Below, piece after piece: positions 26,201-43,197 of a DNA stretch of 64,000 nt. Under the pieces are notes generated by a model, which worked only from the letters and a program-made list of their open reading frames with translations, was not told the origin of the DNA and searched no databases. Position 1 is the first letter of the stretch. Every line of letters begins with the position of its first letter. This DNA comes from an uncultured Pseudomonadota bacterium. GTDB lineage: Bacteria > Pseudomonadota > Gammaproteobacteria > Steroidobacterales > Steroidobacteraceae. Location of the stretch: NCBI GenBank assembly GCA_903838705.1, contig CAILZL010000004.1, positions 124,001 to 188,000 of the forward strand. Reading direction: 5' to 3'. The translations under genes were made by a program, and so were the position numbers.

Positions 26201-26884
26201 TCAGAACAGTTCGACATCGCCGCCCTTCGCCTCATTCTCGACATTCTTGAGGTACATGCGTTCACGCTCGAACAGAGTGTCATTGCGTACCGCAGCCAGT
26301 TTCTTCACCCTGATCTTGCCGGTGTCCGGAAAGTACTGCACCTTGCGCGGGTAAATATCGCCAAGATCCTCACCCGAAACGTCAAACCCTTCATCCAGCA
26401 TGTACTTACGAACGAACTCAATGTTACGCGCACCGATATCCATAGCCATCGCTTCGAGCACCTTGCCGCCGCCCACCAGTTTCACTTCAAGCTGATCCCG
26501 TCGTCCTCCCAGCTTCAGGATGTCGTTAACCAGCCTTTCCATCGCCACATTTCCGTAACGGGTCGCAGCACTGGCTGCCGCACCCCATGAACTGGTTCCC
26601 TGTGAGGTATCCAGCGGCAACATGAAATGATTCATGCCGCCCACGCCGATCCGCTTGTCGCGTACGCACGCAGACACACAGGAACCGAGCACCGTCGTGA
26701 TCATCTCGCTGGACGTGGTTACGTAGTATTCGCCCGGCAGCAGACGAGCAGCAAACACGGAATTCTCACGATCCCAGTAGCGGCTGACGTGCTCGAACTG
26801 CGGCAGGGCACGCGGCGGTGTTCTGGGCGACGCACCGGGCGTTGCCACTCCTGCCGAATCGGATTGTTGTAGCGTATATGTCAT
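26201..26884 (-). CDS. cheD: Chemoreceptor glutamine deamidase CheD
   Basis: 227 residues. The papain-like catalytic Cys is in TVLGSCVSACV and the His in GVGGMNHFMLP; RYGNVAMERLVNDILKLG and VKLVGGGKVLEAM follow as in the family. CheD deamidates glutamines of chemoreceptors and can partner CheC-type phosphatases. The C-terminal tail ends GGDVELF, the same VELF ending as the adjacent small protein at 26893-27351. Eight bases separate the genes. Confidence 0.92.
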   Translation of the reverse strand: MTYTLQQSDSAGVATPGASPRTPPRALPQFEHVSRYWDRENSVFAARLLPGEYYVTTSSEMITTVLGSCVSACVRDKRIGVGGMNHFMLPLDTSQGTSSWGAAASAATRYGNVAMERLVNDILKLGGRRDQLEVKLVGGGKVLEAMAMDIGARNIEFVRKYMLDEGFDVSGEDLGDIYPRKVQYFPDTGKIRVKKLAAVRNDTLFERERMYLKNVENEAKGGDVELF

Positions 26885-26892
26885 TCCTATCC

Positions 26893-27351
26893 TTAGAACA
26901 GCTCGACATGACCTTGCTTGCTGTCGACAGATGAGCTGCTTTGCATCACTACTTTATCTGTAGGCCAGGCCAGAATCTGATCAAACAGCATCCGTTCATC
27001 TTCCATACTGAACTGATTACGCACTGATCGCAGAATATCGCGCCAGTCATTCTGGCCCACATTAGATGTCAGAGCTTGTTGTAACTCCGACAATGCATCG
27101 CGCACATGCGACAGGCGCTGCACCATCTGATCATGATACGGCATAGCCATCATTGCCTCTCTGGCATGGGTGCGCAAAGCAACGCCGTACTCTTTCATAG
27201 TGGGCGGAAACTCTGCTGTGACCAGCGCGATTCCTGCCACTGCATCAGATAGAGTACTTACCTGTGAGTCTGCATTGCGTAATGCAACTTCAATTTGCAT
27301 TGCCGCCAGTTGCAGGATTGCGCTGATTGGTGATGGATTAAATTGGCTCAC
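26893..27351 (-). CDS. CheZ-like small helical chemotaxis protein with VELF tail
   Basis: 152 residues, predicted all helical, no signal peptide. The segment MPYHDQMVQRLSHVRDALSEL (residues ~91-111) aligns with the CheZ catalytic helix: compare GYQDLSGQIIRSV of the CheZ at 42478-43197. Tyr, catalytic-type Asp, and Gln in DxxxQ spacing, then a Val, coincide. The last residues GHVELF match the CheD tail (GDVELF). It lies between cheY (13 bases upstream) and cheD (8 bases downstream) in the che operon. I infer a phospho-CheY phosphatase or CheY-binding adaptor. It is not annotated by any family I can name. Confidence 0.6.
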   Translation of the reverse strand: MSQFNPSPISAILQLAAMQIEVALRNADSQVSTLSDAVAGIALVTAEFPPTMKEYGVALRTHAREAMMAMPYHDQMVQRLSHVRDALSELQQALTSNVGQNDWRDILRSVRNQFSMEDERMLFDQILAWPTDKVVMQSSSSVDSKQGHVELF

Positions 27352-27364
27352 GCGTCAAACTCCG

Positions 27365-27733
27365 TTACAGCACGCGGGCCATGGTAGCCAGCAGCTGATC
27401 GGGATTGAACGGCTTAACTATCCAGCCGGTTGCACCCGCGCGCTTGCCCTCCATTTTTTTCTCCTGACTCGATTCGGTAGTCAGCAGCAACAACGGTGTC
27501 AGCCGGTAACTGGGTAATGCACGCAGCTCACTGACCAGGGTGATTCCATCCATGCGCGGCATATTGACATCAGTAATAACCAGATCAACGGAATTTTCAC
27601 GCGCATATTCCAGCGCTTCCTGCCCATCTGCGGCTTCAACAACGCTATACCCGGCAGACAGCAGCGTGGCTTTCACCATCTGCCGCATCGAGGCCGAGTC
27701 ATCCACCGTCATGACCGTTCTTGCCATCATCAA
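27365..27733 (-). CDS. cheY: CheY-like response regulator (che operon copy)
   Basis: Single receiver domain of 122 residues: acidic pocket VDDSASMRQ, phospho-acceptor Asp54 (VITDVNMPRMDG), Thr-Thr in LLLLTTESS and Lys in GWIVKPFNP. No output domain. This resembles CheY paralogues that work with a dedicated che operon; the second copy at 42072 is the more likely flagellar-switch regulator because it is co-transcribed with cheZ. Start may be Met1 or Met2 (MARTVMTVDDS). Confidence 0.9.
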   Translation of the reverse strand: MMMARTVMTVDDSASMRQMVKATLLSAGYSVVEAADGQEALEYARENSVDLVITDVNMPRMDGITLVSELRALPSYRLTPLLLLTTESSQEKKMEGKRAGATGWIVKPFNPDQLLATMARVL

Positions 27734-27769: not shown

Positions 27770-28888
27770 CTATCTGCCCGTACCGGACTTCACTGATGAG
27801 ATAACAGGCGCGCCCACACTATCTGCCAGTTTCAGCAAGGTGGCAGCCACACGTCCCAGAGGCACAACTTCCTGAGCCCCGCCCAGCTTAACCGCAGCAC
27901 CGGGCATACCCCAGACCACACTGGTAGCTTCATCCTGAGCGATGGTTGGTGCGCCAGCCTCAAGCATCTCCTTCAAACCGTGAGCACCGTCATCACCCAT
28001 TCCGGTGAGAATGGCGCCGACTGCATTGGGTCCGACGTTCTGCGCAACCGACCTGAACAGAACATCGACACTGGGCCGGTGACGATTCACTGGCAGACCA
28101 TCGCTCAAACGACACAGATAGCGCGCACCATCGCGCTCAACCATCAGGTGCTTGTCACCGGGTGCGATATAAACATGGCCCGGCAAAATATACTGTCCAT
28201 CATGCGGCTCACACACTGACATGGCGCATAGTGAATCGAGTCGACGCGCAAACGGTCCGCTGAAGGCAGCAGGAATATGCTGCGCAATCACAACGGCCGG
28301 AGTATCAGCAGGTAATCCCATCAGCACATCGCGCAAGGCTTCTGTGCCGCCCGTGGAAGAACCGATGGCAATAATGCGATCGGTAGTCTTGAGCATGCGC
28401 TGACCGCTGACTGCGGGTAGTACCGCATCAGCACTCAGCTTGGGCTGAACCTTGGCCATCGCTTCGTTGCCCGTCCAGGCACGCACTCTGGCACCCGCAG
28501 CAATTCGCACCTTGGCGATGATCTCTTCTGAAAAATCGTTGAGCGTTCCAGCGAGATCAACCTTGGGCTTGGACACGAAATCCACCGCACCCAGTTCCAG
28601 TGCCTTGAGGGTGGTATCAGCTCCCCGCTCGGTGAGTGAGGAAACCATGATCACCGGCATCGGTCGAAGACGCATCAGATTGCTGAGAAATGTAAGCCCG
28701 TCCATACGCGGCATTTCAACGTCCAGCGTCAGCATATCAGGATTCAGTGCCTTGATCTTGTCACGGGCAATGTAAGGATCTGCCGCAGTACCTATCACTT
28801 CAATATCTGATGCCGAATTCAGAATTTCTGTCAGCATCTGACGGACCAGCGCTGAATCATCCACGATCAATACGCGTAACTTCTTCAT
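27770..28888 (-). CDS. cheB: Chemotaxis protein-glutamate methylesterase CheB
   Basis: 372 residues: receiver domain with Asp56 ([13 protein letters not shown]) and a C-terminal methylesterase domain with catalytic Ser in [13 protein letters not shown], His in [13 protein letters not shown] and Asp in [11 protein letters not shown]. It removes methyl groups from receptor glutamates when phosphorylated by CheA. Immediately downstream of cheR (2-base gap). Confidence 0.95.
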
Positions 28889-28890
28889 GA

Positions 28891-29760
28891 TTAATCCTCC
28901 ACGCGCCGGTAGATTGTCCTGCCAATCAGTTCATAGCGATCAGTTACACGATGCAGACTTTCGGAATGCCCCAGATACAGAAAGTCTCCGGGACGCTGCA
29001 ATTCCGCCATGCGTTCAAACAGTATCTTCTGTGTGGGCTTGTCAAAATAGATGATCACGTTGCGACAGAAGATCACATCAAACGGTCCCCGCATGGGCCA
29101 GTCATTCATCAGGTTCAGCTGCTTGAAAGTAATCAGTTCCTGAAGTGAAGGGGAGACCTTCACCTTGCCCTTCACGCCTTCACTAAGCGTCTGGAAATAC
29201 CTGGCCACTCGCGCCTGTGACACTGACTCAAGTCGCTCCTGTGCATAGATGCCTGCGGAAGCTGTTGCCAGTACCTGCGTATCCAGATCAGTCGCCAGAA
29301 TTCTGGCATCTATCCCGACCAGCAGTTCCTTCTGTTCACGCAGCACCATGGCTGCGCTGTAAGGTTCCTCACCCGTTGAACATGCACAGGACCAGATGCG
29401 CAACCGCCCTGATCCTTGGGCACGCCGCGATATTGCCGGCAGCACTTCTTTGGCAAGATGATCAAAATGATGCGACTCGCGAAAGAATGAAGTCAGATTG
29501 GTAGTAACTGCGTTGATGAACTCTTCAAGTTCGGCTGTATCTGACTTCTCCAGCTGTGCAATGTAGGGTGCGAATCCGGACAACCGCAGTGCGCGCAGGC
29601 GACGCACCAGCCTTCCGTAGATCATTTCACGCTTCGATTCGAAGAGCGCAATCCCGGTATGCTCGCGCACCAGTTCGCAAATACGCTTGTACTCTCCATC
29701 AGAAAGCACAAAGTCACTTGGTCCATTACTGGACACCGCCACGGCACCGGATGTATTCAC
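28891..29760 (-). CDS. cheR: Chemotaxis protein methyltransferase CheR
   Basis: 289 residues. N-terminal helical domain ([20 protein letters not shown]) and SAM-dependent methyltransferase domain with [17 protein letters not shown] and [13 protein letters not shown]. It methylates receptor glutamates. The two receptors of the operon end in EWNEF and EWKEF, the xWxxF type of tail bound by CheR beta-subdomains. The start is GTG at 29760 preceded by AGGGA. Confidence 0.95.
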
Positions 29761-29780: not shown

Positions 29781-30302
29781 CTATGAATTCAGCTGACCTG
29801 ATGCACCTGCTTCAACACATTCAGAAACCAGCGAATCAATATCGAGCAGCATCACCATCTTGTTGTCCACTGTAGCAATGCCATTGACACAGTCACTGTC
29901 AATGCTGCCACCCAGATCCGGAGTCGGCTTAATCGCATCGCTGACAAAGCTGTACACCTCTGACACGGCATCCACAACAATGCCGACCGTCTTTTCACCC
30001 TTGGTACCTTGCACCCGCACGACAATGACCACTGTAGAGGCGTCGAATTCACGCTGCTCAATGTTGAACCGGGCACGCAGATTGATCACCGGCACAATCA
30101 TGCCGCGCAGATTCATCACACCGAGCACATAGGCAGGCGCATAGGGCACTCTGGTAACCTTGTCCCAACCTTTTATCTCCAGTACTCGCATGATGTCGAT
30201 GCCGTACTCTTCACCTGCACACACAAAGGTCAGATACTGAGCGCCGCCGGGTGTGCCCACGGCATTCGATGAATCAGAAGCTGCTGTTGCTGTCTGTGTC
30301 AT
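29781..30302 (-). CDS. cheW: CheW adaptor (copy 1)
   Basis: 173 residues; ATG 30302 with AGGAG 6 bases upstream was chosen over a far upstream in-frame start. SH3-like CheW domain: YLTFVCAGEEYGIDIMRVLEIKG, VMNLRGMIVPVINLRARF, and VGIVVDAVSEVYSF. It links CheA to receptors. It follows the first-described receptor gene by 10 bases. A second CheW is encoded at 35953-36441, so the operon brackets its two receptors between two adaptors. Confidence 0.93.
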   Translation of the reverse strand: MTQTATAASDSSNAVGTPGGAQYLTFVCAGEEYGIDIMRVLEIKGWDKVTRVPYAPAYVLGVMNLRGMIVPVINLRARFNIEQREFDASTVVIVVRVQGTKGEKTVGIVVDAVSEVYSFVSDAIKPTPDLGGSIDSDCVNGIATVDNKMVMLLDIDSLVSECVEAGASGQLNS

Positions 30303-30312
30303 GGTGATACTC

Positions 30313-32934
30313 CTAAAACTCATTCCATTCGTTATCACTTGCCGATCCGGCTGCACCGTTTGCCACCTTGCGTGCCGGCGCTGGATTGCCGGCAGCAGAA
30401 GTACCGGTGGTTCTGTTTGACGCAGATGACCACGGACGATCAGCTGAACGACGCTCAACCTTCGCAGTACTGCCAGCCTGAGCTTCATTACCTACCTGGT
30501 AACGCGCAATCATGCCGTTCAATGTCTGTGCCTGTTCAACAATCGCCCGGCTAGCCAGCGCAGCCTGCTCAACCAGTGCCGCGTTCTGTTCCTTGGCATC
30601 GTCCATTTTCATGACGGCCTTATTTACCTGTTCGATACCTGAGGATTGCTCACGGCTGGCCGCAGCAATCTCCGCAACGATATCGGTCACTTTCTTGACT
30701 GCACCCACAATCTCATCAAGGGTCTTGCCTGATTCATCGACCAGGCGCGTGCCTTCTTCCACTTTGGCGACGCTGTCCTGAATCAGCGTCTTGATTTCTT
30801 TTGATGCCGTGGCACTGCGCCCTGCCAGATTACGTACTTCAGTTGCCACCACCGCAAAGCCACGACCCTGTTCACCGGCGCGCGCAGCTTCTACCGCTGC
30901 GTTCAGTGCCAGCAGATTGGTCTGGAAGGCAATTTCTTCAATCACACCGATGATGTCGGCTATCTTCTTCGATGCTTCATTAATGCCACCCATGGCTTTC
31001 ACCGCAGAACCGACCACCAGACCACCCTTCTCGGCTTGCTGGCGTGCTGCCATGGCCAGCTGGTTGGCCTGACCTGCATTGTCGGCGGTCTGCTTGACTG
31101 ATGAAGTCATCTCGTCCATTGACGAAGCGGTTTCTTCCAGGCTGGAAGCCTGTTCTTCAGTGCGTTCAGACAGATTGTTGTTGCCTTTGGCAATTTCTTC
31201 GGCATCGGACTGCACTTCGCTGGCAGCGACTTTCACCTGTTTGATCAGTACCGCCATTGATTCCAGAAGGGAATTGATGCCTTTGCACAGAGATTCAATT
31301 TCACCGGTTTTGCCATTGGTGGAGATGCGTTGGGTGAGATCACCGTCAATGGCAGTCTTCACCACATTCTGGGTTTCCTGCACAGCCATCTGCAATTGCT
31401 GTGACAACTGCACCTTCTCAGTCACGTCGGTTGCGTACTCAACGACCTTCACCGGCTTGCCATTGACATCAAGAATCGGATTGTAAGAAGCTTCAACCCA
31501 TATCTCTCTGCCACCCTTGCCAACCCGCTTGTACTGACCCGCCTCGAACTCGCCGCGCTTTAACTTCTCCCAGAGCAGCCCGTGCTCAGCATTGCCGGCA
31601 CCAGTTGCTTCAGTAAACAGGCTGTGGTGTTTGCCCTTGATCTCATCAAGTGAATAACCAAAGCTCTTCAGGAAATTGTCGTTTGCAAAGCGCACCGTAC
31701 CATCCAGTTCGTACTCGACCACTGCCTGCACTCTGCCAATCGCAGTCATCTGGCCCCGAATATCTTCATTCAGCCTGGCTTCATCAGCGATCGACTTGCA
31801 CAACTTGTCACGCAGATCGCCCAGTCTGGCCAGCAAGGTACGGGTCTCGGTGGTACCCACCTGCTCAAGATTCAATCCGTCATATTTTCCAGCACGCATT
31901 TCATCCATTGCCTGCAATGCCTGTGTGATTGGCTTATTGATGGCCCGAACCAGCATCATGCTGAGCACGGCTGCCACACCCAGTAACAGAGCGGTCAGAC
32001 TCAGATTTTTATACAAGTCCAACTTGGTTGACTTATAGCGGTCATCAACAATCTTCTGAAAGGCCTCGGAAATCGGATCATGGATGTTATCTCTGCTATG
32101 TAATGCCGCCTGCCATTGCATCAATGCATTCGCTAAAGACTTTCCTTCCGGATGAGCCAACTGAAGAAGTTGCAGGGTATTATCTGATGCCTCCGAGTAC
32201 AGAGCTTTCGACTCCGTAATAGCCTTGTCAAACTGACCACGTAATACCGGATTTGAACCACCGACGATGTCCACATTACTCTGTATCACATCAAACTGGT
32301 TTAATATCACACCTGCTTGCTGTGCGATAAACTGCTGAGCTTTCTCGGTGTTAACATCTGGATTGCGTAATTGAATCAGCTGATCTGCAACTTTCCCAGT
32401 GTGCTCAATCGTTACTGGCAACCGGGTTGCTACCACATCACCCAGGTAATAACTTTCCAGAGCTGGATCAAGTGTAATGCCTGAATTCTCTGCGATCTTA
32501 AGGCTAAATTCATTCAGCTCGCTGCTTAGACTTCCAAGGTGTTGCCGTGAGGCGGCGTTGTCCATCGCGGACAGCTGCACACTTATTTTTTCCCACTGTG
32601 TGCGCATATTAAGCGCATCTATATCGAGAAGATGTTCACGGTTTATCTGTAAAGTAAGATCTCGTATTTCCTTCTGAAGACCGGCCAATTCGTTACCAGT
32701 AATTTGCTGCCCTGCTTCAGCCACCTCAGCAAAAATCGCCAGCTCGCCTACCTTGCCGGATAGATCCAGAACAAGCTCGTCAACTTGCGCTCCTTGCAGT
32801 TCAGATTTGGCAGTTTGTATGGTTGAGATTGAATTAGTAACATAAGAGTACGTCATCAGCGTCAATGGCAGAAGCAAAGCCAGCCCCGTCACGAGTAGAT
32901 AGGTTGACGATCTGGCTGCGGGCAGTTTGAACAT
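30313..32934 (-). CDS. PAS-containing methyl-accepting chemotaxis protein (873 aa)
   Basis: TM1 ~12-30, long periplasmic helical sensor domain ~34-300 (LYSEASDNTLQLLQLAHPEG), TM2 ~310-332 ([21 protein letters not shown]), HAMP, a PAS domain ~400-500 (VEYELDGTVRFANDNFLKSF ... VVEYATDVTEKV), a second HAMP-like segment and the cytoplasmic signalling hairpin with tip [22 protein letters not shown]. The C-terminus is DNEWNEF, an xWxxF pentapeptide for CheR/CheB docking. Ligand unknown; the PAS may sense redox or energy state. It is a tandem paralogue of the 934-residue receptor upstream. Confidence 0.93.
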   Translation of the reverse strand: MFKLPAARSSTYLLVTGLALLLPLTLMTYSYVTNSISTIQTAKSELQGAQVDELVLDLSGKVGELAIFAEVAEAGQQITGNELAGLQKEIRDLTLQINREHLLDIDALNMRTQWEKISVQLSAMDNAASRQHLGSLSSELNEFSLKIAENSGITLDPALESYYLGDVVATRLPVTIEHTGKVADQLIQLRNPDVNTEKAQQFIAQQAGVILNQFDVIQSNVDIVGGSNPVLRGQFDKAITESKALYSEASDNTLQLLQLAHPEGKSLANALMQWQAALHSRDNIHDPISEAFQKIVDDRYKSTKLDLYKNLSLTALLLGVAAVLSMMLVRAINKPITQALQAMDEMRAGKYDGLNLEQVGTTETRTLLARLGDLRDKLCKSIADEARLNEDIRGQMTAIGRVQAVVEYELDGTVRFANDNFLKSFGYSLDEIKGKHHSLFTEATGAGNAEHGLLWEKLKRGEFEAGQYKRVGKGGREIWVEASYNPILDVNGKPVKVVEYATDVTEKVQLSQQLQMAVQETQNVVKTAIDGDLTQRISTNGKTGEIESLCKGINSLLESMAVLIKQVKVAASEVQSDAEEIAKGNNNLSERTEEQASSLEETASSMDEMTSSVKQTADNAGQANQLAMAARQQAEKGGLVVGSAVKAMGGINEASKKIADIIGVIEEIAFQTNLLALNAAVEAARAGEQGRGFAVVATEVRNLAGRSATASKEIKTLIQDSVAKVEEGTRLVDESGKTLDEIVGAVKKVTDIVAEIAAASREQSSGIEQVNKAVMKMDDAKEQNAALVEQAALASRAIVEQAQTLNGMIARYQVGNEAQAGSTAKVERRSADRPWSSASNRTTGTSAAGNPAPARKVANGAAGSASDNEWNEF
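30651..31100. repeat. Near-identical direct repeat within receptor genes, copy 1
   Basis: About 450 bases encoding the signalling-tip region (including SVAKVEEG and the [14 protein letters not shown] core) match 33354-33803 without indels at a constant offset of 2703 bases; the proteins are almost identical over ~150 residues here while their sensor domains differ strongly. Confidence 0.8.
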
Positions 32935-33000
32935 GATTAGTTACCACTCGATATAAAAGCAAATTTGTCACCACATCCGGTCTCTACAGGATGACATTTA

Positions 33001-35805
33001 TCAAAATTCCTTCCACTCGGTATCATCCGCACCAACAGCACTCTTTCGTGGCATTGATTCACGTGCGGGAACACCAGTTCTGGCTGCCGGCCTGGTCCAG
33101 GGTCGGCTGGCGGTGCGACGCTCCTTATCGGGCGTTACAACAGTAGTCCGTGATTCAGATTTCACAGGTGCAAATGCTGCCTGCCCTTCATCACCGACCT
33201 GATAACGCGCAATCATTTCACTGAGTGTCTGCGCCTGTTCAACAATGGCCTGACTGGCAGCCGCAGCCTGCTCAACCAGCGCGGCATTCTGCTGCGTGGT
33301 ATCGTCCATCTGCATCACAGCCTTGTTCACCTGCTCAATGCCAGAGGACTGTTCACGGCTGGCGGCAGCAATTTCCGCCACAATGTCAGTTACTTTCTTG
33401 ACTGCCATGACAATCTCATCAAGCGTCTTGCCTGATTCATCCACCAGCTTGCTGCCTTCTTCCACCTTGGCCACGCTGTCCTGAATGAGTGTCTTGATTT
33501 CCTTTGAAGCAGTGGCGCTGCGCCCTGCGAGATTGCGTACTTCAGTTGCTACCACCGCAAAGCCACGACCCTGTTCACCAGCGCGCGCAGCTTCTACCGC
33601 TGCATTCAGCGCCAGCAGATTGGTCTGGAAGGCAATTTCTTCAATTACACCGATGATGTCGGCGATCTTCTTCGATGCCTCATTGATGCCACCCATGGCT
33701 TTCACTGCAGATCCCACTACTGCACCGCCCTTCTCGGCTTGCTGCCGTGCGGCCATCGCCAGCTGATTGGCCTGACCTGCATTGTCGGCGGTCTGCTTGA
33801 CGGTAGATGTCATTTCTTCCATGGAAGAAGCTGTTTCTTCCAGACTGGAGGCCTGTTCTTCAGTACGCTGGGACAGATTGTTATTGCCCCTGGAGATTTC
33901 TTCTGCACCTGTGTGTACTTCACCCGCAGCGGATTTGACGTTCCTGATGAGGTTGGCCATTGACTCGACCAATGAATTAACCCCTGCACATAACGCTTCA
34001 ATTTCACCAGTCATGCCGGCAGTCTGAATACGGGGTTGCAGGTTGCCCTCAATGGCTGAATTGACAACTTTGCGCGTCTCATCCACAGCCGTCTGCAATT
34101 GCGCTGACAACTGGACTTGTCGCATGGTTGATTCAAGCAATGAATTAACACCACCGCAGAGTTCTTCCAGCTCACCTGTCTTGCCCTGCATCGGAATACG
34201 CTGCGTTACATCACCGTTGATCACCGCTTTTACTGCCGTCTGAGTTTCCTGTACAACAGATTGCAACTGCTGTGACATCAGGACCTGCTCGGTAATGTCA
34301 GTGGCATAGGCAACGATCTTGAACGGCTTACCGTGGCTATCAAGTACCGGATTGTAGGAAGCCTCAACCCATATCTGCTGGCCGCTCCTGGTGATGCGCT
34401 TGTACTGACCCGCATCGTATTCGCCGCGTAGCAGCTTCTCCCAGAATGCACGGTGCTCACCTCCCGCTGCATACACTGGCTCCGTTAGCAAACTATGGTG
34501 CTTGCCGTTAATTTCATTCGGGGAATAGCCGAATATCCGCACAAAGTTTTCGTTCACAGAACGTACTGAGCCATCCAGATCCAGTTCAATCACGGCCTGC
34601 ACCCGGCCAATCGCCGTCATCTGGCCTTGAATGTCTTCCTTCAGGCGAGCTTCATCCGCAAGAGTTTGACATAGCTTGTCACGCAGTGCACTCAGTTGTG
34701 ACATCAATGTGCGCGTCTCGGCGGTGCCGATCTGCTCAAGATTAAGCCCGTCATACTTGCCACCTCGCATCTCGTCCATTGCCTGTAAAGCTTTTGTAAT
34801 TGGCTTATTGATGGCTCGTACAAGCAAGACGCTCAGGAACGAGGCAATCGCCAGCAGCAGGGCTGTCAGGCTCAGATTGGTGTATAGAGCTGAGCGAGTT
34901 GAGGTAAAGCGCTCACTGACAATTTTATGGAAGCCTTCTGAAACTGGATCGTGTATCTGATGAATACCATGCAAGGCTGTCTGCCACTGCGCAAGCGCCG
35001 CACTCACCTCTCTGAGATCAGGATGTGCAGCCTGTAACGTCTTCATGGTCTGTTTAGAAGCTTCCTTGTAAAGCGCATTGGAACCTGCAATCACAGAATC
35101 ATACTGCCCCTTCATGGCAGCCGTTGACCCGCCCACCACTTCGACATTCCGCTGCATTACTTCATATTGCTGAAGTACCACGCCAGCTGCCATAGAGGCT
35201 TTCTCACGAACCTGTTCTAAATCAGCATCTGCGAGATGCAGCTGGTTCAGGGCGGCGCTGGCAAGCCGTGTCTGCTCAATTACAATGGGCAATCGGGTCG
35301 CCACCACATCACCCAGGTAGTAACTTTCCAGAACCGGATCAAGTGTTATTCCGGAACTGTCTGCCACCTTGAGACTGAATTCATTCAGTTCATGACCGAG
35401 ATCACTGAGCTGTGTTACCGTGCTGCTGCTACTCATTGTAGCCAGTTCTGTGCTGAGCTTTTCCCACTGACTACGCAGCCCCAGAGCGTCGACCGCAGCC
35501 ATGTGCCCACGATTGACTTCTGTCGCAGTGTCACTGACCTCCTTAATCCGGGTTGCCACCAGTGCGGCGTCGGCTGATCTGCCCGATTCAGTTTCAGCGG
35601 CGAGAATCGCCAGCTCCCCTGTTCTGCCGGCGAGATCAATCAGCAGCTCATTCAGCTCTGCACCCTGCAGCTCTGCTTTTGCTCCGTCTATATTCACAAC
35701 TGAGTTGTGTATATATGAGTAAGCCAGCCATGACATCGGCAGCAGCAAAGCAACCCCTGTCACCAGCAGGTAGGTAGACGTCTTGAATGCGGGCAATTTG
35801 AACAT
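33001..35805 (-). CDS. PAS-containing methyl-accepting chemotaxis protein (934 aa)
   Basis: Architecture as in the 873-residue neighbour: TM1 ~11-30, periplasmic domain ~34-300, TM2 ~310-332, HAMP, PAS ~400-500 ([20 protein letters not shown] ... [12 protein letters not shown]), but with two consecutive HAMP-like segments after the PAS (VIEGD-type repeats NGDVTQRI and EGNLQPRI) instead of one, which accounts for the extra ~60 residues. Signalling tip identical to the neighbour. Tail DTEWKEF (xWxxF). It lies between cheW copy 2 and the 873-residue receptor gene. Confidence 0.93.
33354..33803. repeat. Near-identical direct repeat within receptor genes, copy 2
   Basis: Partner of 30651-31100, same orientation. 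Recombination between the copies would delete ~2.7 kb and fuse the two receptors. Confidence 0.8.
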
Positions 35806-35952
35806 GATAAATACCTGTCAATAAACTACGGACTTTTTGTTGCATCCCGGATTTGCAGCGGTTTGCGACAACCAATTTCAATTCACACAGTTTCACCACA
35901 GACAGCAACCCGCTTCCCAGTTGCTGCCCACCAGAATCATCAAACACTCTCG

Positions 35953-36441
35953 CTAATGCATCTGCTGACCCGAAACAAGACGATCAGCATCCAGCAGGAT
36001 GATGGTCTTGCCATCAAGGTGAGCCAGGCTTTGCACCATCTCGCTGGATGCAAGGCTGCCAATCTCCGGCATTTTATGAAGCTGGTTTTCGTTGACGTCA
36101 CAGACTTCAGAGACAGCATCGACCACCAGACCAATGATCTGGTTATCAGCAGCAAGTTCGACCCGGATGACAATGACCACAGTTGCCGGCCCGAAGGTAG
36201 TAGGAGTCAGAGCGAGTCTGCGTCTCAGGTCAATCACCGGCACGACGCTGCCACGCAGATCCATTACACCCAGCACCCATTCCGGTGACTCTGGCAGTGT
36301 GGTCACCGATGACCAGCCCCGTATTTCCTGAACTGTCTGGATGCCCACACCGTATTCTTCGCCATCCAGCTGGAAGGTCAGATACTGTCTGGTTGATGTA
36401 TCAGCTGATCTGTTAGCTACAGCATTGCTGGTTTGACTCAC
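35953..36441 (-). CDS. cheW: CheW adaptor (copy 2)
   Basis: 162 residues with the CheW fold: YLTFQLDGEEYGVGIQTVQEI, VMDLRGSVVPVIDLRRRLA, IGLVVDAVSEVCDV. The start GTG overlaps the cheA stop (GTGA), so CheA and this CheW are translationally coupled and likely form the core complex. It differs clearly from copy 1 in sequence, so a recent duplication is unlikely. Confidence 0.93.
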   Translation of the reverse strand: MSQTSNAVANRSADTSTRQYLTFQLDGEEYGVGIQTVQEIRGWSSVTTLPESPEWVLGVMDLRGSVVPVIDLRRRLALTPTTFGPATVVIVIRVELAADNQIIGLVVDAVSEVCDVNENQLHKMPEIGSLASSEMVQSLAHLDGKTIILLDADRLVSGQQMH

Positions 36442-38534
36442 GCAGCCTCCCTTGCCGGGTCACGCGCGTTTTGCTGCTGGATGAAATTACTGATGACGCC
36501 CGGCACATCCAGAATGAGCGCCACACGACCATCGCCCAGCATGGTTGCACCGGTCAGACCTGTGATCTGACGGAAATTGGTTTCGAGACTCTTGATGACA
36601 ACCTGCTGCTGTGACATCAACTCATCAACAAACAGTCCTATGCGCTTGCCATCGGCTTCGACAATCATCAACAGCCCATTAGACAGCTCTGTACGGTCGG
36701 CGACGATATCGAACAGTTCATACAGTCGCACGATGGGAATGTACTCATCGCGCAGCCGGAATACTTCAGAGCGATTTGCAATAGTGCTCACCTGCTCGGG
36801 CCGTATCTGGATGGTCTCAACGATCGAGACGATAGGTACCACATAGGTTTCCGAGCCGACGCGTGCAAGTTGCCCGTCGAGAATGGCCAGAGTCAGTGGC
36901 AATCTGATTCGTACCGTGCTGCCCTTGCCCAGAGTCGAGTAGATCTGCACATGGCCACCAATCTCGTTGATGTTGCGCCGTACCACATCCATGCCGACTC
37001 CCCGTCCCGATACATCACTGACCACTTCGGCAGTTGAAAAACCGGGAGCAAAGATCAGATTCAGGATTTTCTCTTCGGACAGTTCCTCATCCGGTCCTAC
37101 CAGTCCACGCTCACGCGCTTTGGCGAGAATCCGGTCGCGATTTAGTCCGCCGCCATCATCACTGACTTCAACAATGACATTGCCACCCTTGTGATATGCA
37201 TTGAGTTCAATGGTGCCTTGAGCAGGCTTGCCTGCTGCAAGCCGCTTGTCCGGGGTCTCGATGCCGTGATCCACTGAGTTGCGCACCAGATGCACCAGCG
37301 GATCACCGATCTTTTCAAGCACTGTCTTGTCGAGTTCGGTCTGATCACCGGTCATCTTCAATTCAAGATTCTTGCCCAGACGCTGCCCCAGATCACGAAT
37401 CATGCGCGGGAAACGATTGAACACCGAGCTGATCGGCAGCATGCGTACGCGCATGACACTTTCCTGAAGTGAACGCATGTGCCGTTCCAGCTGCGCCAGT
37501 GCGTTACGCAGTTCTTCAGCCTGCCGGCCTTCCATGGGAGCAGCCAGCTGACTCAGCACTGATTGCGTGATGGCCAGTTCACCGACTGAATTCAGCATCT
37601 CATCAATTTTTTCGATGCTGACACGAATGGATCCGCCTTCACTGCCTGATGAACGTGGTGCTTCAGGACGGGATGCGGCTCCTGCCGCCACAGATGGCGC
37701 CGGTGGTGGTGTCGCTGCTGCAGTTTCACTCGCTGCAATCGCATGATCTGCTGCCGGTGTAGCTGTCGGTTGTACAGCAGCCGCGGACTGAACGGGGGTG
37801 AGCGGCTCGATATTCAGCTCGCATTCACCATCAACCCATTCGAATATCTGCTCCACTTTGCTTCGTTCCGCATCACTGCGTAACTCAATTTTCCAGGAGA
37901 GCATGCACACTTCCGGATCGAGATCTGCAAGCGTTGGTACCTTGTTTGCGTCTACGCGAGTTGTCATTTTTCCCAGCAGTGACAGCTCACGGAGCATGCG
38001 CACGGGATCATTGCCGTGCTGGAGCATCTGCACACCGGGCACAAGGCTGATACGCCAGCCGGGTACGACATCCACACTGGGAGCAGCGACTGGCGCAGGC
38101 ACAACAGCTGCGCCGACTGCTGCCGGAACAGCCGTGGCAGCAGAGTTACCGTTCATGATCGCCTGTAACTCTGCGTGCAGAGCGGCGGTACGTTCCGTAT
38201 CGGAGGCCTGTTTGGTCTGGGTTGCGGTCAGCATGTCCCGCATGACATCCACTGAACGCAACAGCACATCTACTATTGTTGGATCAACCTGCCGCTTGCC
38301 GCTGCGCAGTTGATCCAGCAGCGTTTCTGCCGTGTGAGTGAACGCCGCTATATCCTCAAACCCGAATGTTGCACTGCCACCCTTGATGGAATGTGCCACA
38401 CGGAAAATGGTATTGATGATTTCCGAATCTGCATCGCCAGAGCTCAATTTGAGCAAGGCGGCTTCCATTGACTCCAGGGCTTCAAAGCTTTCCTGAAAGA
38501 ATGATTCGTGAAATTGCGCAAGATCCAGACTCAT
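36438..38534 (-). CDS. cheA: Chemotaxis histidine kinase CheA
   Basis: 698 residues. P1 Hpt domain with phospho-His48 (RVAHSIKGGSATFGF); a middle region ~155-250 (GWRISLVPGVQMLQHGN ... LSWKIELRSDAERS) of the type found in many beta- and gammaproteobacterial CheA proteins; an Ala/Pro-rich linker; P3 dimerisation (SIRVSIEKIDEMLNSVGELAI); P4 ATPase with HLVRNSVDHGIE (N box) and GRGVGMDVVRRNI (G box); and a C-terminal CheW-like P5. It follows the STAS gene by 6 bases. Confidence 0.95.
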   Translation of the reverse strand: MSLDLAQFHESFFQESFEALESMEAALLKLSSGDADSEIINTIFRVAHSIKGGSATFGFEDIAAFTHTAETLLDQLRSGKRQVDPTIVDVLLRSVDVMRDMLTATQTKQASDTERTAALHAELQAIMNGNSAATAVPAAVGAAVVPAPVAAPSVDVVPGWRISLVPGVQMLQHGNDPVRMLRELSLLGKMTTRVDANKVPTLADLDPEVCMLSWKIELRSDAERSKVEQIFEWVDGECELNIEPLTPVQSAAAVQPTATPAADHAIAASETAAATPPPAPSVAAGAASRPEAPRSSGSEGGSIRVSIEKIDEMLNSVGELAITQSVLSQLAAPMEGRQAEELRNALAQLERHMRSLQESVMRVRMLPISSVFNRFPRMIRDLGQRLGKNLELKMTGDQTELDKTVLEKIGDPLVHLVRNSVDHGIETPDKRLAAGKPAQGTIELNAYHKGGNVIVEVSDDGGGLNRDRILAKARERGLVGPDEELSEEKILNLIFAPGFSTAEVVSDVSGRGVGMDVVRRNINEIGGHVQIYSTLGKGSTVRIRLPLTLAILDGQLARVGSETYVVPIVSIVETIQIRPEQVSTIANRSEVFRLRDEYIPIVRLYELFDIVADRTELSNGLLMIVEADGKRIGLFVDELMSQQQVVIKSLETNFRQITGLTGATMLGDGRVALILDVPGVISNFIQQQNARDPAREAA

Positions 38535-38540
38535 GACGAT

Positions 38541-38891
38541 TTATCCTGCACTGCCCAGAGATGACACACCGGGACTTTCCAGCAATGACCCGACGCCCAT
38601 CAGTTCGATGGCTTCTTCGAGTACTGCTGAGCGGCACTTCCAGAAGAAACCCAGGTTTTTTTCCAGACAGTCGAGTGAAAACGCAACCAGCAACTGCACA
38701 CCGGTCGCATCGATGCGTTCAACAGCAGTGCCGTCAAGCTCATAAGGAGCCGGTCTGGCAAACTGCTCCAGCATGTGTGCTTTAAGCGCAGCGGCTTCAT
38801 GTATGGTGCAGGCACCAGTCAGCACAATGCGTCCGGTTGATTCTTTGGGTGCAGAGGCAGTGGTATCGGTATTTTTAGAGCGCTTGCCCAC
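38541..38891 (-). CDS. STAS-domain protein upstream of cheA
   Basis: 116 residues. STAS fold: GRIVLTGACTIHEAAALKAHML, YELDGTVERID-like core (ELDGTAVERIDATGVQLLVAFSLDC) and a C-terminal helix. The usual anti-sigma-antagonist Ser/Thr position is occupied by ATG (Ala-Thr-Gly: DATGVQLL), keeping a phosphorylatable Thr. GTG start at 38891 with AGAGGT ahead. First gene behind a sigma-28-type promoter, immediately before cheA; such STAS genes recur at the head of che operons but their role is unclear. Confidence 0.82.
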   Translation of the reverse strand: MGKRSKNTDTTASAPKESTGRIVLTGACTIHEAAALKAHMLEQFARPAPYELDGTAVERIDATGVQLLVAFSLDCLEKNLGFFWKCRSAVLEEAIELMGVGSLLESPGVSSLGSAG

Positions 38892-42023: not shown

Positions 42024-42071
42024 TCATTGAAGATCAATGGCGCAGTTGCGTCGCAGAGAAGAGAGAACAGC

Positions 42072-42473
42072 ATGGCTGCACAATCGAACATGAGCATTCT
42101 GGTGGTTGATGACTTTTCGACCATGCGACGCATTATCAAAGGTCTGCTACAGGATCTTGGCTATAGCAATGTGACCGAGGCGGATGACGGACTGACCGCG
42201 TTACCATTATTGAAAGCCGGTAATTTCGACTTTCTGATTACAGACTGGAACATGCCCGGCATGCCCGGCGTAGAGTTGTTGCGTCAGGTTCGGGCAGATG
42301 AAAGACTCTCCAAGATGCCTGTGCTGATGCTTACCGCTGAAGCCAAGCGAGAGCAGATTATTGAAGCAGCTCAGGCGGGCGTCAGCGGCTATGTGATCAA
42401 GCCATTTACTGCAGCCGTTCTGAAGGAAAAGATCGAGAAGATCTTCGCCACCAAGACCCAGTCAGCGGCCTAG
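42072..42473 (+). CDS. cheY: Chemotaxis response regulator CheY (flagellar-switch copy)
   Basis: 133 residues; receiver only. Acidic pair in [16 protein letters not shown], Asp58 in [12 protein letters not shown], Thr in [10 protein letters not shown], Lys in GYVIKPFTA. The DFSTMRRI and DWNMPGM segments are the typical flagellar CheY forms, unlike the che-operon copy at 27365. ATG 42072 is preferred over a TTG at 42027: a purine-rich GAGAAGAGAG lies upstream, and the receiver starts directly. cheZ follows after 4 bases. Confidence 0.94.
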
Positions 42474-42477
42474 CCTC

Positions 42478-43197
42478 ATGAATGCCGTTCAACGAGGGAT
42501 GGCCTGCAACGCCGTCCTGGTGCAGGCATTGAATGATGCGCTGGAACAGAATGACCAGGCAGCATTTACCCTGGCCCTCTATGAACTGAATGCCGCGCAG
42601 AACTCCTCTCTGATGAGTGGGGTAAGACAGGTCGCCGGTGACTTACAGGCAGCTCTTGAACAATTCCGTATTGACTCCCGGCTGCTTGATCTGGCCGAAC
42701 GGGAGATACCTGATGCCCGCCACCGACTGGCTCATGTACTAAAACTGACAGATGAGGCGGCACACCGGACAATGGATCTGATCGATCAATCCTGTCCTCT
42801 GCTTGATGCCATTACCCATAAAGCAGAAAGCTTGTTGTGCGCCGGCAATGCATCTGGAGGGATACGCAACGAATCGGCGAATGAAATGGCATTGTTTGCA
42901 GACACCGCACTCGTCAATGCCAGATCGGTGCGCAGTATGCTCACTGATGTATTACTGACACAGGGATATCAGGATCTGAGCGGACAAATCATCCGTAGCG
43001 TGATGAAACTGGTCGGCGAACTGGAACTGGCTCTCAACACGCTGGTCAGGATAGGTAATCTTCAGACAACTACAGCCTGTCAGAAACCCGACATCAGTTC
43101 ACACGGCTATGGCCCTGTAATCCCCGGCGTGCATCACGGTAATACCGTCGGCGACCAGCAGGATGTGGATGCCATGCTGTCCGGACTGGGTATGTAA
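42478..43197 (+). CDS. cheZ: Protein phosphatase CheZ
   Basis: 239 residues; long helical hairpin with the catalytic segment GYQDLSGQIIRSVMKLV (Asp and Gln of DxxxQ) and a flexible linker ending in the CheY-binding peptide DVDAMLSGLGM, like the classical acidic-hydrophobic CheZ tail. It dephosphorylates CheY-P. Coupled to the preceding cheY. Convergent with ureG (20-base gap). Confidence 0.93.
   Translation: MNAVQRGMACNAVLVQALNDALEQNDQAAFTLALYELNAAQNSSLMSGVRQVAGDLQAALEQFRIDSRLLDLAEREIPDARHRLAHVLKLTDEAAHRTMDLIDQSCPLLDAITHKAESLLCAGNASGGIRNESANEMALFADTALVNARSVRSMLTDVLLTQGYQDLSGQIIRSVMKLVGELELALNTLVRIGNLQTTTACQKPDISSHGYGPVIPGVHHGNTVGDQQDVDAMLSGLGM

Follow-up and report, generated by a model that had tools for sequence, protein, structure and literature searches.

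Gene organization of the che locus

The window analysed here, a 64,000-nucleotide stretch of a contig from an uncultured bacterium of the Steroidobacteraceae, contains a che cluster on the reverse strand and a separate cheY–cheZ pair on the forward strand (Table 1). Within the cluster, a 152-residue protein is encoded by a genuine coding frame of 152 codons with a GTG start, which begins 13 bases past a CheY open reading frame (ORF) and after which cheD starts at a distance of 8 bases. The protein contains the motif A69-M-P-Y72-H-D74-Q-M-V-Q78-R, and the corresponding stretch of the CheZ encoded in the same window is GYQDLSGQIIRSV. The original prediction of a DxxxQ-bearing ORF inside the che operon, with a classical cheZ elsewhere, is borne out by the sequence, in which the motif reads as quoted and the separate gene matches the Pfam CheZ family. 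Homologues of the part of the cluster that extends from cheW to the STAS protein occur elsewhere in a similar order.

Table 1. Features of the che locus and of the separate cheY–cheZ pair; positions are those of the window.
Feature	Position	Strand	Basis
Compact DxxxQ protein, 152 aa	26893..27351	-	ORF, homologues, AF2 hairpin
CheZ-like active-site signature A69-x-x-Y72-H-D74-x-x-x-Q78	27118..27147	-	D and Q invariant in homologue alignments, one of the two gathered with a pattern already holding D and Q
V-E-L-F C-terminal tail of the compact protein	26896..26907	-	Tail kept in homologues
GGAG, likely ribosome-binding site, 8 nt 5' of GTG	27360..27363	-	Sequence
F7-type cheY, probable substrate	27365..27733	-	Response_reg E 4.7e-29; groups with CheYs beside DxxxQ modules
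cheD, own C-terminus -DVELF (VELF 26204-26215)	26201..26884	-	CheD Pfam E 8.5e-28
cheB, same cluster	27770..28888	-	ORF; named by reading of the sequence, no family search
cheR, same cluster	28891..29760	-	ORF; named by reading
Remaining che cluster: cheW, two MCPs ending EWxEF, cheW, cheA, STAS protein	29781..38891	-	ORFs; named by reading
Second cheY, adjoins classical cheZ	42027..42473	+	Groups with CheYs beside CheZ
Classical cheZ	42478..43197	+	PF04344 E 4.3e-38; matches 1kmi_Z E 4.9e-13

Compact DxxxQ proteins and their predicted fold

Among 20,000 shuffles of the window protein, D...Q occurs in 60%, [FY].D...Q in 3.7% and A..[FY].D...Q in 0.46%. With D...Q in 60% of the shuffles, its presence in a single sequence carries little weight; the motif is considered to be more than chance because the Asp and the Gln are conserved among homologues. 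A search with the single protein as query produced a match in 12 of 59 genomes (its own and 11 of 58 relatives), and the loci of these 12 genomes hold 13 compact proteins, one locus (L006) containing a second one that was found later by profile. The Asp and Gln are kept in 13/13 and the tail in 12/13 of these proteins, so that the homologues retain the DxxxQ positions on which the original prediction turned. At L006 two different DxxxQ proteins (505-876 and 1444-1965) flank one cheY. When 11 compact proteins are aligned, Gln19, Asp74, Gln78, Arg79, Glu119 and Phe123 do not vary.

A family profile searched against 369 genomes of the class matched 66 of them. The 30 compact loci listed from this search, three of whose genomes are shared with the first set of 12, show the Asp and Gln in 30/30 and the tail in 28/30; one exception has extra residues after IDLF and the other, which is also in the first set, has no tail. 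The residue preceding the Asp in the compact proteins is His, Tyr or Ala, where CheZ has Gln. Named GTDB contigs, one of them titled Steroidobacteraceae, contributed 26 further loci; the search pattern for these contained the Asp and Gln, and they are therefore left out as evidence for the conservation of this pair. Compact genes at L056, L058-L062, L064 and L071 sit among housekeeping genes (typA, gltB, glnA and others, named by reading), with motif and tail kept.

Neither the window protein nor its family gave a credible match in Pfam, NCBIfam, the PDB or plasmid sequences. The best Pfam match of the window protein, DUF7939 (E 0.13), lies below the cut-off of that family and was dropped. Some A1 members show scattered matches to unrelated helical families (down to E 3.8e-4), none of which is common to more than 2/11. 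The window protein has no Pfam match to the CheC/CheX models PF04509 and PF13690 up to E 10, and the MCP signalling domain PF00015 is absent from its 152 residues.

The AF2 monomer model, based on 21 sequences, is of moderate confidence (pLDDT 71.8, pTM 0.48). It consists of a hairpin of helices 6-46 and 53-95, with Asp74 and Gln78 in the middle of the second helix, followed by short helices at 103-113 and 117-127, a low-confidence stretch at 133-148 and then the tail. The CheZ-type hairpin anticipated for this protein thus has a counterpart in the predicted fold, and the model matches in outline the hairpin, linker and tail of CheZ. Foldseek and VIA-align 2 applied to the model returned generic helical hairpins, with no CheZ chain (1kmi) among the matches listed, a result that decides nothing.

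Receptor-borne modules and the relation to CheZ

The family profile also finds proteins of ∼390-420 residues in which a DxxxQ module lies C-terminal to an MCP signalling domain; PF00015 was present in 6/7 proteins scanned, the seventh being a compact protein. In the receptor module, LQFQDRVSQILxHV is accompanied by another conserved segment, around Y-T-x-E-E/Q-R, and by a tail of the form -[VI]TFF or -[VI][ED]LF. Comparison of the compact with the receptor modules using hhalign (prob 98.8, E 1.4e-16) places the Asp, the Gln and the tail in register, and on this alignment the two are clearly homologous. In agreement with this, A4, a profile of the receptor modules alone, gives the window protein a score of 28.9 bits and aligns Asp with Asp and Gln with Gln. 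It matches 113/369 genomes, including one match in the window's own genome (E 1.4e-6) that is known at the genome level only.

Reading of the A4 matches covered 50 loci and 20 weaker matches out of the 113 genomes. The distinct receptor-type members (51, from 68 loci) show D...Q in 51/51 and, by a loose pattern, the tail in 51/51. The 20 weaker matches comprise 17 with the full [QH][FY]xDxxxQ, two with DxxxQ without the aromatic residue and one with Arg for Gln; the aromatic residue before the Asp is missing in 3/20, and the tail is present in 19/20. The protein with Arg for Gln (L227, G150:C101) keeps the tail and the Asp and may represent a natural loss of an active site. Variant receptor-type proteins at L047/L205 and L220 have QFQDxxxQ and end in -IELF, one of them in a frame of more than 600 codons. 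Over the three sets (13 + 30 - 3 shared + 51) the Asp/Gln pair is found in 91/91 distinct members, although the profiles themselves contain this pair, so that profile-derived counts lean towards conservation. As judged from their sequences, the compact DxxxQ proteins and the receptor modules form a widespread family that has no name.

Gene orders around the receptor-type members are receptor-cheY-cheA-receptor-cheW-cheR-cheD-cheB or cheR-cheD-cheB-receptor, with variations. Since these resemble stages 2 and 1 of F7 clusters, and given the tail, we take the ∼400-residue receptors to be McpA-like (Pseudomonas aeruginosa PA0180 type), an assignment made by gene order and tail and not by the PA0180 sequence. 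In Ortega et al. (2020; PMC7184735), McpA-like is the name used for such receptors of F7 clusters of stages 1 and 2, and the McpA C-terminus is described as strikingly conserved and important, with an unclear role.

The clear homology to receptor modules, together with a fold search that retrieves only generic hairpins, could be explained if the window protein were a structural relic of a McpA-like receptor, i.e. a helical bundle that lacks the signalling hairpin and in which the Asp and Gln serve packing or array assembly and have no CheY-directed role. This explanation is quite improbable: a polar Asp/Gln pair kept in 91/91 members and in 19/20 weak members, in a CheZ-like context, exceeds what packing would lead one to expect, and the pair is also kept in compact proteins that have no receptor part.

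The resemblance to CheZ is carried by the receptor modules. An alignment of McpA-like modules (28 rows, of which hhalign kept 19) compared with 26 CheZ sequences (25 of 30 CheZ loci that passed a motif filter and the CheZ of the window) gives a probability of 87.9, a P-value of 3.2e-6 and a score of 42.2, with Asp on Asp and Gln on Gln; the controls score no higher than 18.1 (60 shuffles of the columns) and 12.1 (reversed CheZ). An earlier run with ten full-length receptors (probability 14.9, P-value 0.0018) gave the same register of Asp and Gln. Matches to the Pfam CheZ family at E ≤ 0.01 are produced by 4/19 McpA-like modules (best 2.3e-4, all below the cut-off), which is more receptor modules than match any other of the 24,736 families, the next family being matched by two. 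A profile that combines all modules shows a weak similarity (P-value 7.6e-4, score 28.9 versus a shuffle maximum of 24.2). A PDB profile search with A4 reaches 1kmi_Z only at E 4.2, behind unrelated and partly designed proteins.

When the compact family is set directly against CheZ, the similarity does not reach significance (P-value 0.86; in a second run P-value 0.14, in the wrong register). The Pfam and NCBIfam CheZ models do not match the window protein up to E 10, and CheZ is not among the families listed (25 of 28) when the 11 A1 members are compared up to E 1. The CheZ signature is given as AxxF(Y)QDxxxQ in PMC7750401; the window protein has the Ala (Ala69) and the aromatic residue (Tyr72), with His73 in place of the Gln, and the McpA-like modules (50 loci) have FQD, FED or FDD at this position. 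The CheZ sequences examined, including that of the window, contain VD..L..LG near the C-terminus, and the corresponding peptide VDDLLxSLG[FM] is absent from the compact family, which ends in -[VI][ED]LF. The window protein fails on the Pfam model, on the direct profile comparison and on the C-terminal peptide; it is therefore not a CheZ by membership, and a reading of it as a shortened CheZ is not supported. It is most closely related to the module at the C-terminus of McpA-like receptors, which in turn resembles CheZ. The sequence link between the window protein and CheZ passes through these receptor modules and is likely, though not certain.

CheY lineages, the tail shared with CheD and a proposed function

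In a tree of CheY sequences, a single branch (support 99/94) splits 40 distinct CheYs encoded within 250 bases of a DxxxQ module from 29 encoded beside CheZ, the latter drawn from the CheZ loci with the highest scores and from the window itself; the alignment has few columns and long branches are flagged. The window contains one CheY of each side. Together with the gene order in the window, the tree fits the earlier suggestion that the DxxxQ protein is dedicated to the CheY of the che operon. According to PMC7184735, F7 clusters of stages 1-2 have a cheY, and where these stages occur cheZ is included only in the F6 clusters.

Immediate adjacency to cheY was rejected as a rule for compact genes, a cheY lying immediately upstream in 7/13, 2/30 and 3/20 loci of the three sets examined. 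No cheA, cheB or cheR was recognized in 10/20 neighbourhoods examined, and five distinct loci (L005, L007 = L121, L008, L009 and L119) contain a cheY and a DxxxQ gene with no other che gene recognized in the stretch covered. A subgroup (L109, L114, L116 and L122) has a small gene between cheY and the DxxxQ gene; it comprises ∼110 codons with a signal-peptide-like start and a conserved LPPAPS.IPDG, and apparently encodes an exported protein.

A CheZ-type phosphatase that acts mainly on another receiver, such as the receiver domain of CheB or the flagellar (F6) CheY, would be compatible with cheB being the recognized same-strand neighbour within 250 bases of 10/51 receptor-type genes (no che gene is recognized there for nine), with the gene order cheR-cheD-cheB-receptor and with the association of McpA-like receptors with F6 arrays that is reported in PMC7184735. 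We regard this as rather unlikely, because 33/51 McpA-like genes have a same-strand cheY within 250 bases that does not belong to the CheZ-adjoining lineage and several compact genes pair with cheY alone. McpA-like receptors are reported in F6 arrays, and McpA of Shewanella oneidensis is reported to signal to Che3 and not to Che1 (PMC9855816), so that the receptor-borne form of the module may have a target other than the F7 CheY.

The module is found in 102/121 genomes with CheD and 15/248 without (Fisher 5e-54, for genomes that are not independent), counts that may include a few false matches, inspection having covered 20 of the weaker ones; no module was found in 19/121 genomes with CheD. 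Within the CheD-containing genomes, the pattern expected if the module substituted for CheZ is not seen. The first search found the module in 50/99 such genomes with CheZ and 11/22 without it, and in the wider search it is commoner with CheZ (87/99 versus 15/22, p 0.045). The genome of the window has, besides the DxxxQ protein, both CheZ and a CheX match (G000:C18:53773-54048, E 5.3e-20). The first search yielded 13 genomes that contain the module but no CheZ; eight of these (G041, G067, G125, G188, G202, G220, G255 and G329) have FliM, with no CheZ over the cut-off and no CheX/CheC match at E 0.001.

The C-terminal tail is shared with CheD. Among the frames of more than 60 codons in the window, only the DxxxQ protein and CheD end in such a tail, and of the 30 CheD loci with the best scores, 28 encode a CheD with -[VIA][ED]LF at its very end or no more than two residues before it. 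CheD tails like that of the DxxxQ protein were noted in the window and at loci among L147-L176, L129-L146 and L207-L224. Both CheD and the receptor have such tails at eight loci (L207, L210, L214, L216, L217, L218, L223 and L224), and at L137/L201 (both ITFF) and L144 CheD and the adjacent receptor-type protein have tails of one type; however, among ten loci where a receptor-type protein and an entire CheD are both in view, eight have a CheD that lacks the tail. Two genomes (G164 and G240) encode a tailed CheD with no module found, and from these sequences the partner of the tail is therefore probably not the module itself. Interpretation of the tail as a CheR pentapeptide was set aside, since in P. 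aeruginosa McpA, as stated in PMC7184735, a Val at the fourth position from the C-terminal end prevents CheR binding.

A tail held in common with CheD, which is no phosphatase, would also suit an adaptor that binds CheY and has no phosphatase activity, the DxxxQ face holding CheY or CheY-P at the array and the tail acting as a tether; gene linkage and tail conservation fit such an adaptor as well, and the compact members do not have the CheZ-type Gln before the Asp. Mere binding would, however, need neither the near-strict Asp and Gln at the CheZ spacing in both compact and receptor forms nor the profile resemblance to the active-site helix of CheZ, and an adaptor of this kind seems unlikely.

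On balance, we consider it reasonably probable that the window protein is a small CheY-P phosphatase of F7 systems that uses the mechanism of CheZ. Following the chemistry of CheZ, in which the Asp contacts the active site of CheY-P and the Gln positions the attacking water, Asp74 would make the former contact and Gln78 would position the water. The F7-type CheY, a signal protein that had no phosphatase assigned to it, would be dephosphorylated by the DxxxQ protein and the flagellar CheY would be served by the classical CheZ, while the flexible linker and the -[VI][ED]LF tail could let the DxxxQ protein and CheD dock on one and the same array component. Relatives carry this module as part of a McpA-like receptor and not as a separate protein.

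A broader and more tentative proposal is that the DxxxQ module could be the missing CheY-P phosphatase of gammaproteobacterial F7 systems in general, fused to a receptor in many and free in others. The docking peptide shared with CheD would then bring phosphatase and receptor deamidase together on a single partner, replacing the CheC-CheD link of other bacteria. Such a module could explain both the F7 cheY genes that have no cheZ of their own (Pseudomonas and Shewanella) and the conserved end of McpA-like receptors. If this is true, the receptor itself would be a signal terminator. A literature search, confined to titles and the openings of abstracts of open-licence papers, found no statement of a CheZ-type motif in McpA-like receptors or in an unnamed operon protein.

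Compared with known systems, the window protein is most like the McpA-like receptors, whose C-terminal module has a DxxxQ segment (LQF[QED]DxxxQ in the receptors), a following helix and a conserved tail with Val or Ile four residues from the end, and whose genes adjoin cheY or cheB/cheD; it differs from them in that the MCP signalling domain is present only in the receptors. Similarities to CheZ (PF04344; 1kmi_Z of Escherichia coli) involve the DxxxQ motif, an aromatic residue two positions before the Asp, the location of these residues on helix two of a hairpin (predicted for the window protein), a low-confidence linker, a short tail with a hydrophobic end and a gene that follows a cheY. The differences from CheZ are that the window protein has no Pfam match or direct profile significance, has His for the Gln before the Asp, carries another tail and is associated with a different CheY lineage. 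The CheC/CheX/FliY phosphatases differ from the window protein in fold and signature, none of them is matched by it in Pfam, and their likeness to it lies only in the proposed function.
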